Positions 82 to 4,992 of a stretch of DNA of 5,076 nucleotides are shown here, piece by piece. The stretch covers positions 1 to 5,076 of the forward strand of contig JAUXBS010000114.1 of assembly GCA_030619245.1 (NCBI GenBank), given 5' to 3'. The translations under genes and the position numbers were made by a program. The notes below the pieces were generated by a model that saw only the letters and a program-made list of their open reading frames with translations, searched no databases and had not been told where the DNA came from. The stretch is from Clostridia bacterium. GTDB taxonomy: Bacteria; UBA6262; WVXT01; JAUXBS01. Position 1 is the first letter of the stretch. Every line of letters starts with the position of its first letter.

Positions 82-99
82 GCTCACATAAAATACCCC
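82..99 (+). repeat. Left terminal repeat, outer copy (L1)
   Basis: GCTCACATAAAATACCCC, followed by three more C. Its reverse complement differs from the outer right copy (4563-4580) at one of 18 positions. In IS21-family elements several repeats at each end are binding sites for the IstA helix-turn-helix; that role is inferred here. Confidence 0.85.
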
Positions 100-105
100 C
101 CCTAT

Positions 106-123
106 GCTCAGATAAAAGACCCC
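106..123 (+). repeat. Left terminal repeat, inner copy (L2)
   Basis: GCTCAGATAAAAGACCCC, two mismatches from L1 and starting 24 bp further in. The same 24-bp step is found at the right end, so the spacing itself appears to be conserved. Confidence 0.8.
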
Positions 124-266
124 TTTCATTCCCAACAGATTTAACAGCAAAAGAAATACAGATAGGCTTGTGAACTCTTAAAGGGTTACTAAAGGAAGTA
201 ATGGGGACATTGATGAAACGCTCGTTGATGTGAGTCTCAAAAATGTTTAAGGGAAGCGATTGCTTA
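124..266. other. Non-coding region between istB and the left end
   Basis: There is no convincing gene here. A minus-strand open frame crosses it but overlaps both the istB 3' end and the terminal repeats and looks accidental. The stretch contains a TTGATGTGAG sequence (223-232) that resembles the TTTATGTGAG part of the terminal repeats on the same strand, possibly a weak further transposase site. A poor hairpin (AACTC/GGGTT, about 174-188) is the only terminator-like structure, and it has no T-tract, so no terminator is called. Confidence 0.4.
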
Positions 267-1022
267 TTATTTCTGGGTTTTAGTGGCATAGACGATGTTT
301 TTTGCTCTTATGCTGATGCATTCCTTCATGTTAAAGACAGTACAGTTTACGGTGATTCTATCAAGGAGCGCCGCAGTAAGATGTTTGTCCTGCAGGAAGG
401 TTCCCCATTCTTCGAAGCCCAACTGGGTAGTGATGATGGTTGTATGTTTTCTGTTCCTTGCCTTTATTAACTCAAAGAACGAGCCTGCCTGTTCTTTATC
501 AGCGATATTATAACCTAATTCGTCAATGAGCAGTATTTCGTAGGATTGGAGTCGTTTGAGCAGTTTGTATTCGGTATGGTCAGCCCTGGCTTGAAACAAT
601 TGATGTATCAGTTTCCCGAACTCAATAAAATATCCTTTGGAGCCCTGATTGATGGCATGTATAAGGAATGCGGTTGCCAGTCCGGTTTTCCCGCAGCCTG
701 TGGGGCCGATAAAAACAAGTTCCTGGCTTTTCGTGATGAAACGCAGGGAATCATAAAGTTCCATGACCAGTTTTTTCTTCAGTCGGGGTTGTCTGGAGAA
801 AGGAAAGGTCTCCATGACCAGCAACTCCGGGATATTAGCCTTTTTGATACGGGCGAGCCTGGCTCTTTCTTTTTTGTCGGTGTATTCTTTCTCAATAATG
901 TTTGTTAAGAATCTGTGGTAAGAGGGTTGTTTCCTTTTAGCTTCTGATAGAACAGCGTCCCAGTTTTCAGGGATGGTTCTCAACCCTAAAAACTGAAGTT
1001 CTTTTTTTATAGTTTCATCCAT
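267..1022 (-). CDS. istB: IstB-like AAA+ ATP-binding helper of IS21 transposase
   Basis: A 251-residue AAA+ ATPase, the normal length for IstB. In IS21 elements IstB binds target DNA, forms ATP-dependent oligomers and recruits and activates the IstA transposase. An N-terminal helical region (about 1-95) is followed by the ATPase core: Walker A GPTGCGKT at 106-113, Walker B LLIDELG at 164-170 with D167 and E168, a sensor-1-like strand TTIITTQ at 194-200, and the family's LLDRI motif at 219-223. The core looks complete. The ATG lies 5 nt after the istA stop. A GGAGA sequence inside the istA 3' end is 13 nt upstream, rather far, so translational coupling to istA is likely. It is the last gene of the element. 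Family assignment is near certain; activity is inferred. Confidence 0.95.
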   Translation of the reverse strand: MDETIKKELQFLGLRTIPENWDAVLSEAKRKQPSYHRFLTNIIEKEYTDKKERARLARIKKANIPELLVMETFPFSRQPRLKKKLVMELYDSLRFITKSQELVFIGPTGCGKTGLATAFLIHAINQGSKGYFIEFGKLIHQLFQARADHTEYKLLKRLQSYEILLIDELGYNIADKEQAGSFFELIKARNRKHTTIITTQLGFEEWGTFLQDKHLTAALLDRITVNCTVFNMKECISIRAKNIVYATKTQK

Positions 1023-1027
1023 AATTA

Positions 1028-2548
1028 TTATTCGTTCTCCTTTCCGGGAACTTCTTTGTCTGTTATAAGATTCTTATAAAATTCCGGGGCTGCTTCCTGT
1101 GAAAACCGTCCTTGTTGGTATGCCTCTCTTTGTTCATAGTCACCGGTTAGCGTTATCCCGGGCAGAGAGTATTGTTCTTCCCGCATCAGTTGGCGGGATA
1201 TTCTTCTCAATGTTTCAATGTTCCCCACATGATATTTTAACGCCCGTTGGATAATAATCATAAAGACAGAAGGCGCTATATTCCTTGAAAGGCCGTAGAG
1301 CTGGCGGATAAAGTTTGGTTTTTGTCTTATGCCGCTATTGTTAGACCTGATAAAATCAAGATAAGCGCAGCAGGTTTCACCAAGTGACCGGAGCCGTTTT
1401 TCTTCTTCATGGCAGGGTTTTTTAATATTACTGGGTTCGTAAGGATTTGTCTGAGCGCCCTGAGGCGTAAACTTCTGATTCCTGGTTTTTAACGCCGGTA
1501 AGGCATACTCTATAGGTGGTTTGTTTGGCGGAAAAATCTTTATCCTGTCGGTATATTCAATAACCGAAACATTCCCTCTCAACTTGCCGGGGATCCAGTA
1601 ATAATTGGCATTAAAAGCGATGTAACCGTACTGGTCAATATTTCTTTGATGGGGCTGATAGGGAGGTTCTACATAAGCCGGCAGTTTGACCAGGCAGGGT
1701 TTTTCTTCTTCAAACAGGCTGGCCGGGATAAGACGGGTTCTGGAGAGCGGCCGGCGGGCATAATGCGATGTCGCCCACTCAAAGGCCTGGCGGTTAAGAT
1801 CTTCCAGGCTTTCGAACCTGCGGCCCGGGAAAAAATTAGTTTCTACTGTCCAAAAATTCCTTTCCTTGCCCGCCTTGCGGTTTGCATGTCCCTTTTCGTG
1901 GGCAAACCACTCAAACCCGTAAGGACGGGCAAAAGCTATCATCTCCGGGTTATACACCGCCTCACTGCCCGTGCCATGCAGAACCGCCAGGTTGGTATTG
2001 TCAATCACGCAGGTTTTTGCCGCATATCCCCAGTAAGTCAAGGCTTCATAGAAAAAGCATTTCATCTTGAACCTGTTAAAATGCGGATAGAACTTGATAT
2101 AACGCATCTTGGAATAGCGAAGGTACAGGCCGCTGCATATAACCAATTTAACTTCATTGCCTATTTTTAACTTGTAAGGCGATGTGTCCTGCTGCATCTC
2201 AACGCCGGGTTGATCGCCTACTTGATAACAACGCTTGTTTACTTTCCGGCCAATACCGTAGCAGCGAATCATGCGTGACAGGGTGGAGTACCCGATTTCT
2301 ATTTTTTCTTCATCGCTTAAAATCTCATGAACACGCTGTACATAACCGTCACAGCGCTCGTACAGCCCGCGAAGAAACTCCTCATCTATAACCCTTTTAT
2401 CACTCCGTAGTTCTGGCTGCCGGTTTGACCCGGCAAGTATCCTGCGTATTGTCTTGGGAGTCAGATTAAGCAGCCGGGCTATTTCTTTCTTCTTTTTACC
2501 TTCCCCAAAAAGCGTCTGTATTACTTTCCTTCTATCCTCGTTTATCAT
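1028..2548 (-). CDS. istA: IstA-like DDE transposase, IS21 family
   Basis: A 506-residue transposase that would bind the terminal repeats and catalyse strand transfer. An N-terminal helix-turn-helix (about 8-38, KKEIARLLNLTPKTIRRIL) is followed by a second DNA-binding region to about 105 and the integrase-like core. The likely catalytic triad is D121 (MQQDTSPY), D183 (VIDNTNLAV) and E229 (AGKERNFW). The segment KGHANRKAGKER replaces the shorter KGkvEr of classic IstA; I place the catalytic E in KER because the following NFWTVETNFFPGRRF matches the region after that Glu in this IstA branch. A beta-rich C-terminal domain starts near 305. The ATG follows AAGGAG by 4 nt, and the first 17 bp overlap the ParB-like gene, so translation is probably coupled. 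Intact and of full family length. Confidence 0.95.
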   Translation of the reverse strand: MINEDRRKVIQTLFGEGKKKKEIARLLNLTPKTIRRILAGSNRQPELRSDKRVIDEEFLRGLYERCDGYVQRVHEILSDEEKIEIGYSTLSRMIRCYGIGRKVNKRCYQVGDQPGVEMQQDTSPYKLKIGNEVKLVICSGLYLRYSKMRYIKFYPHFNRFKMKCFFYEALTYWGYAAKTCVIDNTNLAVLHGTGSEAVYNPEMIAFARPYGFEWFAHEKGHANRKAGKERNFWTVETNFFPGRRFESLEDLNRQAFEWATSHYARRPLSRTRLIPASLFEEEKPCLVKLPAYVEPPYQPHQRNIDQYGYIAFNANYYWIPGKLRGNVSVIEYTDRIKIFPPNKPPIEYALPALKTRNQKFTPQGAQTNPYEPSNIKKPCHEEEKRLRSLGETCCAYLDFIRSNNSGIRQKPNFIRQLYGLSRNIAPSVFMIIIQRALKYHVGNIETLRRISRQLMREEQYSLPGITLTGDYEQREAYQQGRFSQEAAPEFYKNLITDKEVPGKENE

Positions 2549-3461
2549 AAAACTCCTTCAAGGCTCCTTTGAAAGTATCTATCCTGCCCAATATGCCTTC
2601 AATCAATAAGAGCGCCTCCGTAAAGAAAGAGGGGCTGAACAACCCGGAACTCTTCAATTTGTAAGGAATCTTCCCTATGCATCGCTGAACCGATTCCAAA
2701 TCCCTCAGCGTTCCTGATTCCTGCTTATTATTGTAGTTATTCCTTTCTGTACCTGTTCTTAATTGGTTTAAAGTCCAGTCTATATTGCCCCGCAGGATTT
2801 GTTCTTTAAGATTCTCTGACCCTTTAAAAAACCCTTCCGCCAATACCTCTATGGAACGGGTACTTAACCCTTTACCTGATACTATTTTCACAAATGTATC
2901 TATATCCGTTTTCTTGATTTTGTTTACGCGCGTAAAATGCTGCAGTGTATACAAATATGACCTCGCGGAAAACCGTCCCCCGAATACCGCCTTCTTTACC
3001 ACTGGGCTCATCTCTCCGATAACGCCCAGACGCACGCTCACCCATGCCGGAGAACGCTCCAGGCGCCGGGCTATCTCTGAAACTCCCATCCCGTGAACCT
3101 TGTTTAATTCGTCTACCAGCGCTGACTGTTCAAGAATGCTCAATCCTTTCGTATTGGATAACCTCAGCAGCCGTAATATCGCCGTGGGCTCATCACCGCC
3201 CAGGGATATTACCGGAACAACCTTTATCCCGAGTTTTAATGAACAGCGAAGCCTCTTAAACCCATCCAATAAAATCATACGGCCATCCGGTTTCTCCACG
3301 CACTGCAATGGCTCTTTGACACCCCCTTCTATCATTGAGCTCAGAATCTCTTTTTCCCGGTTCCTGTCTTTTAACCGGTTCCCCTCATGACGGGTGTCGA
3401 GCCGGCTAATTTCAATTTCTTTAATCTTAAAACTTCTTCCGCCTGTTTTATCCATCTCCAA
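2532..3461 (-). CDS. ParB/RepB/Spo0J-like DNA-binding protein carried by the element
   Basis: A 309-residue protein with a ParB N-terminal domain (about 11-105) and a helix-turn-helix (about 125-147, MGVSEIARRLERSPAWVSV). The position of the ParB box II (GERRxRA in chromosomal ParB, part of the CTP-binding site) reads DGFKRLRCSLKLG at 66-78, so the Arg pair is altered to K69-R70 and CTP binding cannot be assumed. The C-terminal third (about 215-309) is not recognised and no ParA partner is present, so chromosome or plasmid partition is unlikely. Its place between the winged-helix gene and istA suggests a role in transposition, for example binding element ends, choosing targets or regulating the operon; this is inference. 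The start is taken as TTG at 3461, 7 nt after GAGG and 12 nt after the upstream stop; an in-frame ATG at 3455 is the alternative. It overlaps istA by 17 bp. Confidence 0.88.
   Translation of the reverse strand: MEMDKTGGRSFKIKEIEISRLDTRHEGNRLKDRNREKEILSSMIEGGVKEPLQCVEKPDGRMILLDGFKRLRCSLKLGIKVVPVISLGGDEPTAILRLLRLSNTKGLSILEQSALVDELNKVHGMGVSEIARRLERSPAWVSVRLGVIGEMSPVVKKAVFGGRFSARSYLYTLQHFTRVNKIKKTDIDTFVKIVSGKGLSTRSIEVLAEGFFKGSENLKEQILRGNIDWTLNQLRTGTERNNYNNKQESGTLRDLESVQRCIGKIPYKLKSSGLFSPSFFTEALLLIEGILGRIDTFKGALKEFYDKRG
2923..2936. promoter_or_regulatory. Perfect 14-bp palindrome inside the ParB-like gene
   Basis: TTTACGCGCGTAAA is self-complementary, and with two flanking bases on the left it reads TGTTTAC at one side, similar to half of the parS site TGTTTCACGTGAAACA. 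It lies in the coding region for HFTRVNKI. About one perfect palindrome of this length is expected by chance in every few windows of this size, so a site role is only a suggestion. Confidence 0.25.
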
Positions 3462-3473
3462 ACCATATCCTCA

Positions 3474-3800
3474 CTACCATCCCTGTTCCGGGAGATCAAG
3501 CACCTGGTATACTCCCCGCCTGTATTCTATGAACCCCTTCTCCCTCAGTCCTTCTGTTGCGCTATCTATTGCCTCCACGCTTATCTTCAGTATTGCCGCC
3601 ATCCGTTCCCTGCTGTAATAACTTATCCCTTTACTGTCCCCGACCGCTATAAGGAAAAAGTAGAGCAGTATCTCCCGGGAAGTCAGTAAATCAATAAACC
3701 TCCCGTTTATAAACCGGTGTTCTATCTGGCTGAAACTTCCATTGACCTTGCGGAGCCGTAAGTTATTAACAGGCCCTGGCCTGCTACTTCTGTTGCCCAC
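3474..3800 (-). CDS. Small winged-helix-like DNA-binding protein of the element
   Basis: A 108-residue protein. After a basic, probably disordered N-terminus (1-22) comes FSQIEHRFINGRFIDLLTSREILLY, then a helix-turn-helix/winged-helix region at about 61-96 (YSRERMAAILKISVEAIDSA, then EGLREKGFIEYR) and a short tail YQVLDLP. The pattern resembles small HTH proteins I recall beside IS21-type transposases, and more distantly the winged helices of replication initiators and MarR-like regulators. It probably binds DNA, either as operon repressor or as part of the transposition complex; the sequence does not decide between these. The GTG start at 3800 is supported by AGGAGG at 3809-3814, 8 nt upstream, one of the best Shine-Dalgarno sites in the element. 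The ParB-like gene follows after 12 nt. Confidence 0.75.
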   Translation of the reverse strand: MGNRSSRPGPVNNLRLRKVNGSFSQIEHRFINGRFIDLLTSREILLYFFLIAVGDSKGISYYSRERMAAILKISVEAIDSATEGLREKGFIEYRRGVYQVLDLPEQGW

Positions 3801-3850
3801 TTGTCTGCCCTCCTATCGGGTTTTACTCAATACTACCACTATCTGCCGGA

Positions 3851-3882
3851 TTTTGCTATCAAGTCCTCTTTTACAAGAATCT
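3851..3882 (-). repeat. Third, diverged copy of the zinc-ribbon gene repeat, outside the frame
   Basis: Bases 3851-3880 match 4026-4055 at 25 of 30 positions. Translated on the minus strand it reads ILVKEDLIAK, comparable with ILVKMDALAK in the first copy, but it lies after the TAA of the zinc-ribbon gene in a different frame and directly behind a TAG. It is offset from the second copy by 91 nt rather than 84, which is one nucleotide out of phase. It looks like a lost C-terminal module. Confidence 0.65.
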
Positions 3883-3896
3883 AAAACCCTTTAGCT

Positions 3897-4349
3897 TTAC
3901 TGCCTCCTGACACTCTTTATCGTCGCTAAAGGTACGAGCCGGACAGTTAACGCGTCCATTTTTACAAGATTTCTGTCATCCTCTGGAATAAGCTTGAATA
4001 ACTTACCTCTCCGACTGTTAAACCCTTTTGCTAACGCGTCCATTTTTACAAGAATTCTGCCTGCCTGGTCCTTGCGTTTCTTGGCATCCCGGATACCTTG
4101 TAAATACTTGTTCCTGACTACATATTCCGGATGTTTCCTGCGGTATTTCCTCATGTAGTACTTATGAGATGCCTGCCATTTCTTCAAACTCCTTTCCTGA
4201 TTATCCCGGTAATCAGCATCTTTTGCCATCTGTTTCCTTTGCCAACGGTTCTTCCTGGCTTGCTGGCATTTCTTATCACTGCAATACCTCTGATTCCTGA
4301 TTCTGTGATTAGGAATGAACTCTTTCCCGCAATGTATACATGTTTGCAT
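3897..4349 (-). CDS. Zinc-ribbon (Cys4) basic protein, first gene of the element
   Basis: A 150-residue protein not named by any family I am sure of. Residues 4-28 form a probable zinc site, C-x2-C-x15-C-x4-C (C4, C7, C23, C28; CIHCGKEF and RYCSDKKCQQ). The next stretch to about residue 93 is very rich in Lys, Arg and aromatic residues (KNRWQRKQ, KKWQASHKYYMRKYRRKHP), typical of a nucleic-acid-binding helix. The C-terminus has LVKMDAL twice (100-106 and 128-134), encoded by a 22-bp identical DNA repeat. The ATG at 4349 is preferred over the GTG at 4358 because GGAGGTG (4358-4364) ends 8 nt before it and would overlap the GTG. It leads the operon and probably binds DNA or RNA for the element; function unknown. 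The end may be truncated, since a third repeat copy follows the stop. Confidence 0.8.
   Translation of the reverse strand: MQTCIHCGKEFIPNHRIRNQRYCSDKKCQQARKNRWQRKQMAKDADYRDNQERSLKKWQASHKYYMRKYRRKHPEYVVRNKYLQGIRDAKKRKDQAGRILVKMDALAKGFNSRRGKLFKLIPEDDRNLVKMDALTVRLVPLATIKSVRRQ
3948..3969 (-). repeat. Direct repeat copy 2 in the zinc-ribbon gene
   Basis: This 22-bp stretch, beginning TAACGCGTCC on the plus strand, is identical to 4032-4053. The copies are 84 bp (28 codons) apart, so they encode the same peptide LVKMDAL in the same frame. Confidence 0.85.
4032..4053 (-). repeat. Direct repeat copy 1 in the zinc-ribbon gene
   Basis: First copy in reading direction of the 22-bp repeat. Identity at the DNA level, including third codon positions, points to recent duplication, gene conversion, or selection on the DNA itself, for example as a protein-binding site. 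Confidence 0.85.
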
Positions 4350-4357
4350 ACTCTTCA

Positions 4358-4364
4358 CACCTCC
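4358..4364 (-). promoter_or_regulatory. Shine-Dalgarno site of the zinc-ribbon gene
   Basis: GGAGGTG on the minus strand ends 8 nt before the ATG at 4349. It overlaps the alternative GTG at 4358 and so argues against that start. Confidence 0.65.
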
Positions 4365-4381
4365 ATCCTGCCATTAATAAG

Positions 4382-4390
4382 ATTATATCA
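4382..4390 (-). promoter_or_regulatory. Extended -10 promoter of the element operon
   Basis: On the minus strand TGATATAAT is a perfect TGn-TATAAT extended -10. No good -35 is seen at the proper distance, which fits an extended -10 promoter. Transcription would start near 4375 and give a leader of about 25 nt before the zinc-ribbon ATG. It is the only strong promoter seen in the element and would drive all five genes. Confidence 0.6.
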
Positions 4391-4476
4391 GGAATCTGTT
4401 TAACTTGGATTAAATTTGATGATGAAGAATTAATAAAGGAAGGTACTTGAGGACAGATTAACTGCCTGCCCCTCAT

Positions 4477-4522
4477 AGAATTAGATATACTTTCAAATCT
4501 TTCGTTCCAGAATTAAATATAC
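4477..4522. repeat. Pair of 14-bp direct repeats upstream of the operon promoter
   Basis: AGAATTAGATATAC (4477-4490) and AGAATTAAATATAC (4509-4522) differ at one position and are 32 bp apart, about three helical turns. They lie between the operon promoter and the right terminal repeats. They could be operator or accessory transposase sites; the region is AT-rich, so chance is not excluded. Confidence 0.4.
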
Positions 4523-4538
4523 ATCATAACTGATTAGG

Positions 4539-4556
4539 GGGGTACTTTATGTGAGT
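4539..4556 (-). repeat. Right terminal repeat, inner copy (R2)
   Basis: GGGGTACTTTATGTGAGT, preceded by two more G. It differs from R1 at two positions and starts 24 bp before it, mirroring the L1/L2 spacing. Confidence 0.85.
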
Positions 4557-4562
4557 ACTAAG

Positions 4563-4580
4563 GGGGTAATTTATGTGAGC
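4563..4580 (-). repeat. Right terminal repeat, outer copy (R1)
   Basis: GGGGTAATTTATGTGAGC, one mismatch from the reverse complement of L1. Similarity to the left end stops directly after GTGAGC, which marks the element boundary. Bases from about 4584 on (IELATHYL) already belong to the interrupted DUF4143 gene. Confidence 0.88.
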
Positions 4581-4937
4581 ACTATAGAGCTGGCTACACA
4601 TTATTTGATAGGCGGATTATTTGAATCTCTGATTATTTCAGAATTGATAAAATGCAGATTAAACAAAGGGTTGGAGCCAAATTGTTATTATTGGAGAGAT
4701 AAGGCAGGAAATGAGGTTGATTGTATAGTAGAAACAGCCGGGAAACTAATACCCATTGAAGTAAAATCAGGGAAAACGATTACAAAGGACTTTTTTTCGG
4801 GTATGAATTATTGGAGGAAACAATCCGGGGTGAAAGTGAATAACTCTTATATCGTGTATGGAGGAAAGGATAGGCAGAATCGCAAGGAAGGTAAAGTAAT
4901 AAGCTGGAAAGATACGAAGTGTATTCTTGATGTATAG
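4581..4937 (+). pseudogene. 3' fragment of a DUF4143-type AAA ATPase gene
   Basis: About 118 residues matching the C-terminal domain of the AAA_14/DUF4143 ATPases (usually about 380-420 residues), often linked to toxin-antitoxin-like or defence islands but without a settled function. Seen here are LATHYLIGGLFESLIISEL, the usual YYWRDKAGNEVD segment, and IPIEVKSGKT; GNEVD and IEVK form the PD-(D/E)xK-like pattern of this domain. The Walker ATPase half and the start of DUF4143 are missing because the element abuts the fragment. The frame continues backward into the terminal repeats, where GTG codons at 4551 and 4575, each preceded at 8 nt by a G-run, could in principle start a short product. 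It is most probably a dead remnant. Confidence 0.85.
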
Positions 4938-4953
4938 GAATTTCAATATTTAT

Positions 4954-4971
4954 CGCAGCCTGAAGGTTGCG
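4954..4971. repeat. REP-like hairpin downstream of the DUF4143 remnant
   Basis: CGCAGCC, loop TGAA, GGTTGCG forms a 7-bp stem with one G-T pair, starting 16 bases after the DUF4143 stop. It is followed by GCTATTCG rather than a T-run, so it is not a classical terminator. Hairpins of this CGCAGCCTGAAGGCTGCGGCTA kind are, as I recall, dispersed intergenic repeats in many environmental bacteria. It may be one member of such a family. Confidence 0.5.
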
Positions 4972-4992
4972 GCTATTCGATGACAATTATGA

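Follow-up and report, generated by a model that had tools for sequence, protein, structure and literature searches.

The contig JAUXBS010000114.1 of a Clostridia bacterium (assembly GCA_030619245.1), which was analysed over its full length of 5,076 nucleotides (hereafter the window), carries a 4.5-kb IS21-type element with five genes, all on the minus strand, between inverted ends (Table 1). In their order on that strand, the genes encode a zinc-ribbon-like protein, a winged-helix-like protein, a ParB-like protein, the transposase IstA and its helper IstB. Comparison with related loci showed that ParB, IstA and IstB form the core of this architecture, in front of which stands an exchangeable cassette with repeats. 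The window is ordinary as an IS21-type element; what sets it apart is a ParB-fold protein locked to IstA and a repeat-bearing zinc-ribbon cassette that also occurs with serine recombinases.

A preliminary description, made from the sequence alone, had reported five co-directional genes inside terminal repeats. This was confirmed, and the ends were found to be inverted, each with two tandem copies of about 22-24 nt. The inverted repeat is 79% complementary over 42 nt (82-123/4539-4580) and 95% complementary over 19 nt (83-101/4537-4555), and the right tip probably reaches 4587. The spacings reported earlier were exact, namely a 12-nt gap from the winged-helix gene to parB, a 17-bp overlap of parB with istA and a 5-nt gap from istA to istB; a further 96 nt separate the open reading frame (ORF) of the zinc-ribbon-like protein from the winged-helix ORF. 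The former ORF extends from a GTG (4358..3897), but translation more likely begins at the ATG at 4349, which follows GGAGG.

Table 1. Features of the IS21-type element in the window. HTH, helix-turn-helix.
Feature	Position	Strand	Remarks
Left end	82..126	.	Two tandem repeats of ~22 nt (about 82-104 and 105-126), inverted copy of the right end
istB, AAA+ helper ATPase	267..1022	-	PF01695 2e-52; NF038214 203.1 bits (cut-off 200)
istA, DDE transposase with N-terminal HTH	1028..2548	-	NF033546 4.6e-36
ParB-like gene	2532..3461	-	TTG start (ATG at 3455 possible); overlaps istA by 17 bp
Winged-helix-like DNA-binding protein	3474..3800	-	HTH_36 3.9e-4 (below cut-off); aligned with 8 relatives
Direct repeat R3	3860..3878	-	Variant TCTTGTAAAAGAGGACTTG, past the zinc-ribbon stop codon
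Zinc-ribbon-like gene	3897..4349	-	Conserved Cys, predicted helices; GTG start at 4358 in the ORF list
Direct repeat R2	3951..3969	-	TCTTGTAAAAATGGACGCG, copy of R1
Direct repeat R1	4035..4053	-	Identical to R2 over 19 nt (TCTTGTAAAAATGGACGCG)
Right end	4535..4587	.	Tandem 24-nt repeats 4535-4558 and 4559-4582; tip CTATAG (minus-strand reading) at 4582-4587

The IS21 traits of an IstA-type DDE transposase, an IstB AAA+ helper and repeated termini at both ends are all present. IstB scored above its NCBIfam cut-off, and the match of IstA to NF033546 (124.8 bits) lay under the curated cut-off of 160. Residues D121, D183 and E229 of IstA, which we take to be the catalytic triad, were invariant across 18 aligned sequences. 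The window resembles the IS21 family (IS21, IS5376) in its IstA/IstB order, in its IstB score and in the two repeats per end, and exact 6-bp target duplications are seen in two relatives. Excerpted accounts describe IS21 members as having two ORFs and multiple terminal repeats (L1/L2, R1/R2; PMC10122671), or two essential proteins and repeated ends, with IstB-linked target immunity left open (PMC11208146). The window departs from the two-ORF layout in that excerpt of PMC10122671 by a ParB gene overlapping istA and by further genes and an operator-like array in front; the two-ORF trait is a descriptive one, and an element with five co-directional genes between its ends is a variant. The excerpt of PMC3281130 calls multi-ORF structures typical of both IS21 and IS66 elements and proposes that they serve in regulation; ParB does not occur in it. 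No description of ParB in IS21 elements appeared in the titles or abstract openings of the matches listed; most subscription papers and ISfinder lay outside this scope, so that a prior description is possible.

A ParB-like protein linked to one IstA branch

All ParB/KorB profile scores of the ParB-like protein lay under the curated cut-offs, TIGR00180 giving 3.8e-10 and 39.8 bits against a cut-off of 58.45. The AlphaFold model of the protein (mean predicted local distance difference test score, pLDDT, of 86) matched ParB, Noc and KorB structures, and a ParB/Srx-type N-domain with a KorB/Noc-type DNA-binding domain is predicted from it. The GERR motif of the cytidine triphosphate (CTP) pocket is GFKR in 27/27 aligned ParB-like proteins, and ENxQR occurs in none of these 27 rows; the protein is therefore probably not a canonical CTP-driven sliding clamp. 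Besides the loss of both motifs, it differs from KorB, Noc and ParB proteins in being tied to a transposase and, as the preliminary description had stated, in lacking a ParA partner, none being encoded in the window.

A protein search returned 689 relatives at E ≤ 1e-5 among 3555 candidates. The ParB loci found first numbered 20 (numbered, like all loci compared here, with the prefix L), of which 19 came from a genome-contig scan and one, from a plasmid collection, lay on the complete plasmid pHRM2a of Desulforapulum autotrophicum. The preliminary description had proposed counting homologues directly upstream of IstA, and for ParB the count was high: IstA was the next gene in 19 of the 20 loci, including L039 with IstA in pieces and L051 with ParB in pieces, and the remaining one, L050, ends at a contig end inside ParB. 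By the titles of the deposited records, ParB-IstA loci span some ten phyla, among them Omnitrophota, Planctomycetota, Chloroflexota, Desulfobacterota, Bdellovibrionota, Spirochaetota, Fibrobacterota, Acidobacteriota, Nitrospirota and Verrucomicrobiota groups; the names were partly interpreted from titles, which can be wrong for metagenome-assembled genomes (MAGs).

Since these loci had been picked via ParB, sampling was also started from IstA. Genome searches scored the top candidates per genome (3-4 for IstA), and absences are not exhaustive. Within ParB-bearing genomes, 25/26 IstA places pair with ParB, and the 26th starts mid-gene at a contig end. Among 395 genomes of one phylum, ParB was found at 5/5 IstA places with E ≤ 1e-60 and at 1/9 places between 1e-30 and 1e-60. 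Among 349 genomes of another phylum, it was found by profile at 7/8 places with E ≤ 1e-60; in the eighth, L186, a remnant of ParB shares 45% identity with its L185 counterpart over 77 residues. The 13 IstA-first places at E ≤ 1e-60 thus comprise 12 with ParB by profile and one with the remnant; when three places in the centre genomes G103 and G107, known earlier via ParB, are removed, 9/10 have ParB and the tenth is the remnant.

The two proteins also vary together, as the co-evolution with IstA raised in the preliminary description would have it. A Mantel comparison of IstA with ParB distances gave r = 0.94 for 23 loci and 0.89 for the 19 close ones (P value = 2e-4); this set excludes L039, where IstA is fragmented, and five loci with a ParB match shorter than 180 residues (L050, L051, L082, L083 and L086), and includes L045 with a piece of IstA. 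The parB and istA frames overlap in 29/30 measurable loci, by 4-44 bp in 24 of them and by 95-548 bp in five with uncertain frame length or start, and a 26-nt gap was found in L155. ParB is thus characteristic of one IstA branch, and occurs sporadically with more distant IstAs (L082, L083 and L086).

The ParB profile gave no relative in viral contigs, and against 384 and 395 genomes of two phyla it matched 2 and 1 genomes, all known already. The window ParB had matches in 36 of 98 genomes, those outside its own locus at E 1e-8 or weaker; these are probably ordinary ParB proteins.

A DnaG/CHC2-type zinc-ribbon gene, called by motif with Pfam checks for L032, L033 and L040, lies behind istB in 6/11 loci examined (L032, L033, L038, L040, L041 and L081). 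It is thus present in L033, which has the nearest IstA of 13 loci compared, and absent from the window.

Front genes and their three direct repeats

The winged-helix assignment is based on sub-threshold HTH matches and a nine-sequence alignment with relatives from other IS21 elements. Relatives were present in 11/47 tabulated loci, namely the window, L080, L082 and eight ParB-less IS21 loci, and the gene is therefore not specific to the window. One ParB-less case is a Caballeronia IS21 element (L088, 393-9768) with zinc-ribbon, winged-helix, IstA and IstB genes, which sits between recombinase genes and a TniQ-family gene.

The five proteins could together form one obligate transposition or target-selection machine, as the preliminary description had suggested, and the window, L080 and L082 do have all five in the same order. 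The complete set was seen in no other locus. Upstream of IstA, the winged-helix gene was found in just 3/35 ParB-bearing loci (in 4/35 the upstream sequence is cut too short to decide), the type of zinc-ribbon gene varies, and both front genes also occur with ParB-less IstA, the zinc-ribbon gene even before serine-recombinase operons. A five-component machine is thus very improbable. Two observations had been named as speaking against it: the genes lying mostly away from IstA, which is not the case for ParB and is so in part for the zinc-ribbon gene, and copies with the same ends that lack the genes, which were found for the winged-helix gene, as L032, L033, L040 and L041 share GCTCAG-type ends and have no such gene. 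The distinct, poorly described IS21 subgroup proposed at the same time survives as a recurrent ParB-tied IstA branch for which no description appeared among the papers listed, and not as a fixed five-gene set.

Neither Pfam nor NCBIfam gave a match to the zinc-ribbon ORF at E ≤ 1. Its product is rich in Lys and Arg, with predicted helices. An alignment of 14 sequences keeps four Cys without exception; in one of 43, three Cys are fully and one is almost fully conserved. Among 13 loci compared, the nearest to the window protein is that of L141 (41%), the IstA of which is only 24% identical; conversely, L033 has an IstA 66% identical and a zinc-ribbon protein 24% identical. L135, which was compared separately from the distance set as its zinc frame is cut, gave 45% over 112 residues for the zinc-ribbon protein and 31% for IstA. 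A CRHC...CPFGC type occupies the same place in L036-L038, L040 and L041, and a CWRGQ.YC-like family does so in L049, L080, L082 and L136, with no significant three-repeat array in these four. The zinc-ribbon and winged-helix genes are exchangeable.

Three direct repeats, absent from the preliminary description, lie at the 3' end of the zinc-ribbon gene in operon direction, 84 and 91 bp apart. Their score was reached by 0/60 shuffles, and the R1/R2 sequence was found nowhere else in its own genome with up to 3 mismatches. For comparison across loci, three 14-mers 60-100 bp apart were scored against 60 dinucleotide shuffles, a score reached by at most 1/60 counting as a pass, and the zinc-ribbon type was defined by an N-terminal profile (A5) built without the repeats. 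The array was found in 20/21 IS21-type loci with an A5 zinc-ribbon gene (L050, cut before IstA, being counted among the 21) and in 1/18 others (Fisher, P value = 6e-9), the single exception, L126, having its zinc gene cut by a contig end. L039, L046, L048, L051, L086 and L187 were left out, and L185, with two repeat copies 66 bp apart, and L186 were scored without shuffles. Some of the 21 loci had defined the pattern and six came from an A5 search made after it was seen; the prospective set is the cleaner number. That search gave 11 places in 10/299 genomes, comprising three remnants and eight intact places (six IS21, two serine recombinase), and 7/8 intact places passed, all except L160.

The same zinc-ribbon type with its repeats precedes a serine recombinase in six loci (L092-L095, L156 and L158), all of which passed (6/6). 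Two are annotated cases with ParB and RepB-like genes behind, on the Methylibium petroleiphilum plasmid RPME01 and a plasmid of Variovorax RA8; a Paraburkholderia plasmid and an IMG/VR contig were recognised from reading frames, and two further genomes complete the set. Pfam found a Resolvase domain in 6/6 and a Recombinase domain in 5/6, the IMG/VR frame being short, and ParB-type genes lie behind the recombinase in five of the six loci, L092 being cut. Five plasmid records carry the zinc-ribbon type of the window: three before a recombinase, one in pHRM2a and one, L096, that matches in part and has frames that include no recombinase. Compared with the window, the Methylibium and Variovorax operons share the zinc-ribbon type and three repeats in front and differ in their Resolvase and Recombinase domains, their two other ParB/RepB-type genes and the lack of IstA and IstB.

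These comparisons showed that the repeats follow the zinc-ribbon gene type, not ParB, the winged-helix gene or the recombinase class. Ownership by ParB or IstA was rejected, as repeats are present in ParB-less L088, L127, L132, L139-L142, L162 and L163, and before serine recombinases.

The repeat sequence differs among elements (TTGYAAAG, CGTTACAAGA, GATACAAAACTC and others). The repeats might be no more than repeated peptides of the zinc-ribbon protein (IAKMDA, ALQD), R1 and R2 being in frame in most loci with the peptides conserved. R3, however, coincides with or follows the stop codon in 13/23 loci, and a purely protein-level repeat therefore does not explain it; moreover, the Desulfobacterota IS21 element in pHRM2a shares the 14-mer GATTGCAAAGATGG, letter for letter, with serine-recombinase loci on Burkholderiales plasmids. 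We regard the peptide explanation as quite improbable. Alternatively, the repeats could act as RNA, the zinc-ribbon protein binding its own transcript and controlling translation of the genes behind. Repeat cores shared between loci do point the same way with respect to the operon (in a tabulation of 28 loci; L033, L045 and L126, each with its own core, are not comparable), no palindrome was seen by eye, and the Lys/Arg-rich, helical character of the protein would suit such a role. Two folded regions nevertheless gave no consistent structure (z = -2.9 in L032, +0.3 in the window) and no Rfam match was found; a shared RNA fold was rejected, and action as RNA appears unlikely.

Similar repeats were also seen elsewhere. 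Two GATTGCAAAGATGGACGTG copies lie 70 bp apart behind istB at the contig end of L086 (21-105, minus strand), with no zinc-ribbon gene visible, perhaps in a circularly cut contig. In two viral contigs (L090, 4301-4393; L091, near 289), a frame with TTGCAAAAATGG copies 81 bp apart encodes IAKMD peptides and looks coiled-coil-like by eye, which may be chance or borrowing.

Proposed roles of ParB and the front cassette

On balance, we lean towards ParB as a third core transposition subunit, and towards the zinc-ribbon gene with its three repeats as a swappable switch that limits downstream expression. ParB would touch both IstA and the end-complex DNA, and would help either in assembling that complex or, with IstB, in target choice. 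As the first product of the operon, the zinc-ribbon protein would bind the three repeats, which lie within and past its own gene, and this binding would throttle read-through into the downstream genes; the winged-helix protein may be an optional second regulator. The stronger version, in which the zinc-ribbon gene, equipped with its own three-site operator, serves as a portable control cassette for elements of unrelated chemistry (IS21 DDE transposases and serine recombinases) and the ParB-fold protein is an obligate third transposase subunit in one IS21 branch, is offered tentatively, as somewhat short of probable.

Several points weigh against assigning these roles. A transcription regulator riding with istA would likewise explain the adjacency and co-variation, and the IstA profile was derived from ParB-adjacent IstAs, so that close matches favour that branch. 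A model of the zinc-ribbon protein had no match in the PDB at E ≤ 0.001, and a host factor may be the repeat binder. L160 did not pass the repeat test (9/60), though two copies are clear, and the zinc-ribbon remnants L161, L164 and L165, which stand outside the 20/21, have neither recombinase nor repeats. The third repeat lies within the coding frame in 10/23 loci; R1 and R2 encode conserved peptides, and part of their conservation may be at the protein level. Zinc-ribbon and IstA distances correlate (r = 0.75, P value = 5e-4, 14 loci), and the exchange is therefore not free. In addition, no target-site duplication flanks the window element, the left tip of which has diverged.

As for ParB, a KorB-like repressor of its own operon, or a maintenance or immunity factor, rather than a subunit of the transposition complex, is a less probable explanation. 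The overlap with the istA frame and the strong co-variation exceed the needs of a promoter-binding regulator, and the three repeats do not follow ParB.

IS21 is a model of AAA+-controlled transposition with two proteins. A third subunit of the ParB fold, in lockstep with IstA, would offer a natural three-part system for studying how ends, target and ATPase are coordinated, and a control cassette found with DDE and serine recombinases alike would mean that the regulation of mobile elements moves as its own module. Tn7-like elements (TnsB-TnsC-TnsD/TniQ) combine a DDE transposase, an AAA+ partner and a third DNA-binding partner. The window shares this combination, and differs in that its third partner is ParB-like and upstream; a search of the window proteins for TniQ/TnsD gave nothing better than TnsD at E = 0.12, in IstA.

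Mobility and flanking sequence

Among 14 loci examined, exact adjoining 6-bp duplications were found in L040 (TCATTT) and L032 (TGGAGG) and a 5-bp duplication, TTGAG, in ParB-less L140; none was seen in the other 11. In L040, CTATAG... ends and the TCATTT duplication surround a 4732-bp unit with zinc-ribbon, ParB, IstA, IstB and CHC2-type genes, and in both L040 and L032 the zinc-ribbon and ParB genes are enclosed by ends bearing the duplication. The window element lies on a MAG contig of 5076 bases and has one copy in its genome (1.5 Mb, 76% complete), as might be expected if the three front genes were passive cargo or an assembly artefact. That explanation is scarcely credible: the order zinc-ribbon, ParB, IstA, IstB recurs in the complete plasmid pHRM2a and in contigs titled as belonging to some ten phyla, which already contradicts it and bears out the earlier statement that the extra genes are not passive cargo, and target duplications surround the ends in two of these loci.

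A promoter and terminator scan gave chance level only. To the right of the element (4588-4937) lies a C-terminal piece of a DUF4143-type gene, the matching N-terminal piece of which was not seen by eye in the 81 bases to the left. L045 also has such a gene upstream, but its end lies elsewhere, and a DUF4143 gene was rejected as a common target. An outer inverted repeat (1-34/4998-5031, 85%) surrounds the whole element; a stretch of some 80 bp that begins at its right arm occurs twice more in a same-genus genome (G001:C118, 90-92%), so that it is a dispersed repeat. A REP-like hairpin repeat at 4927-4975 has six more matches in its own genome (82-93%).

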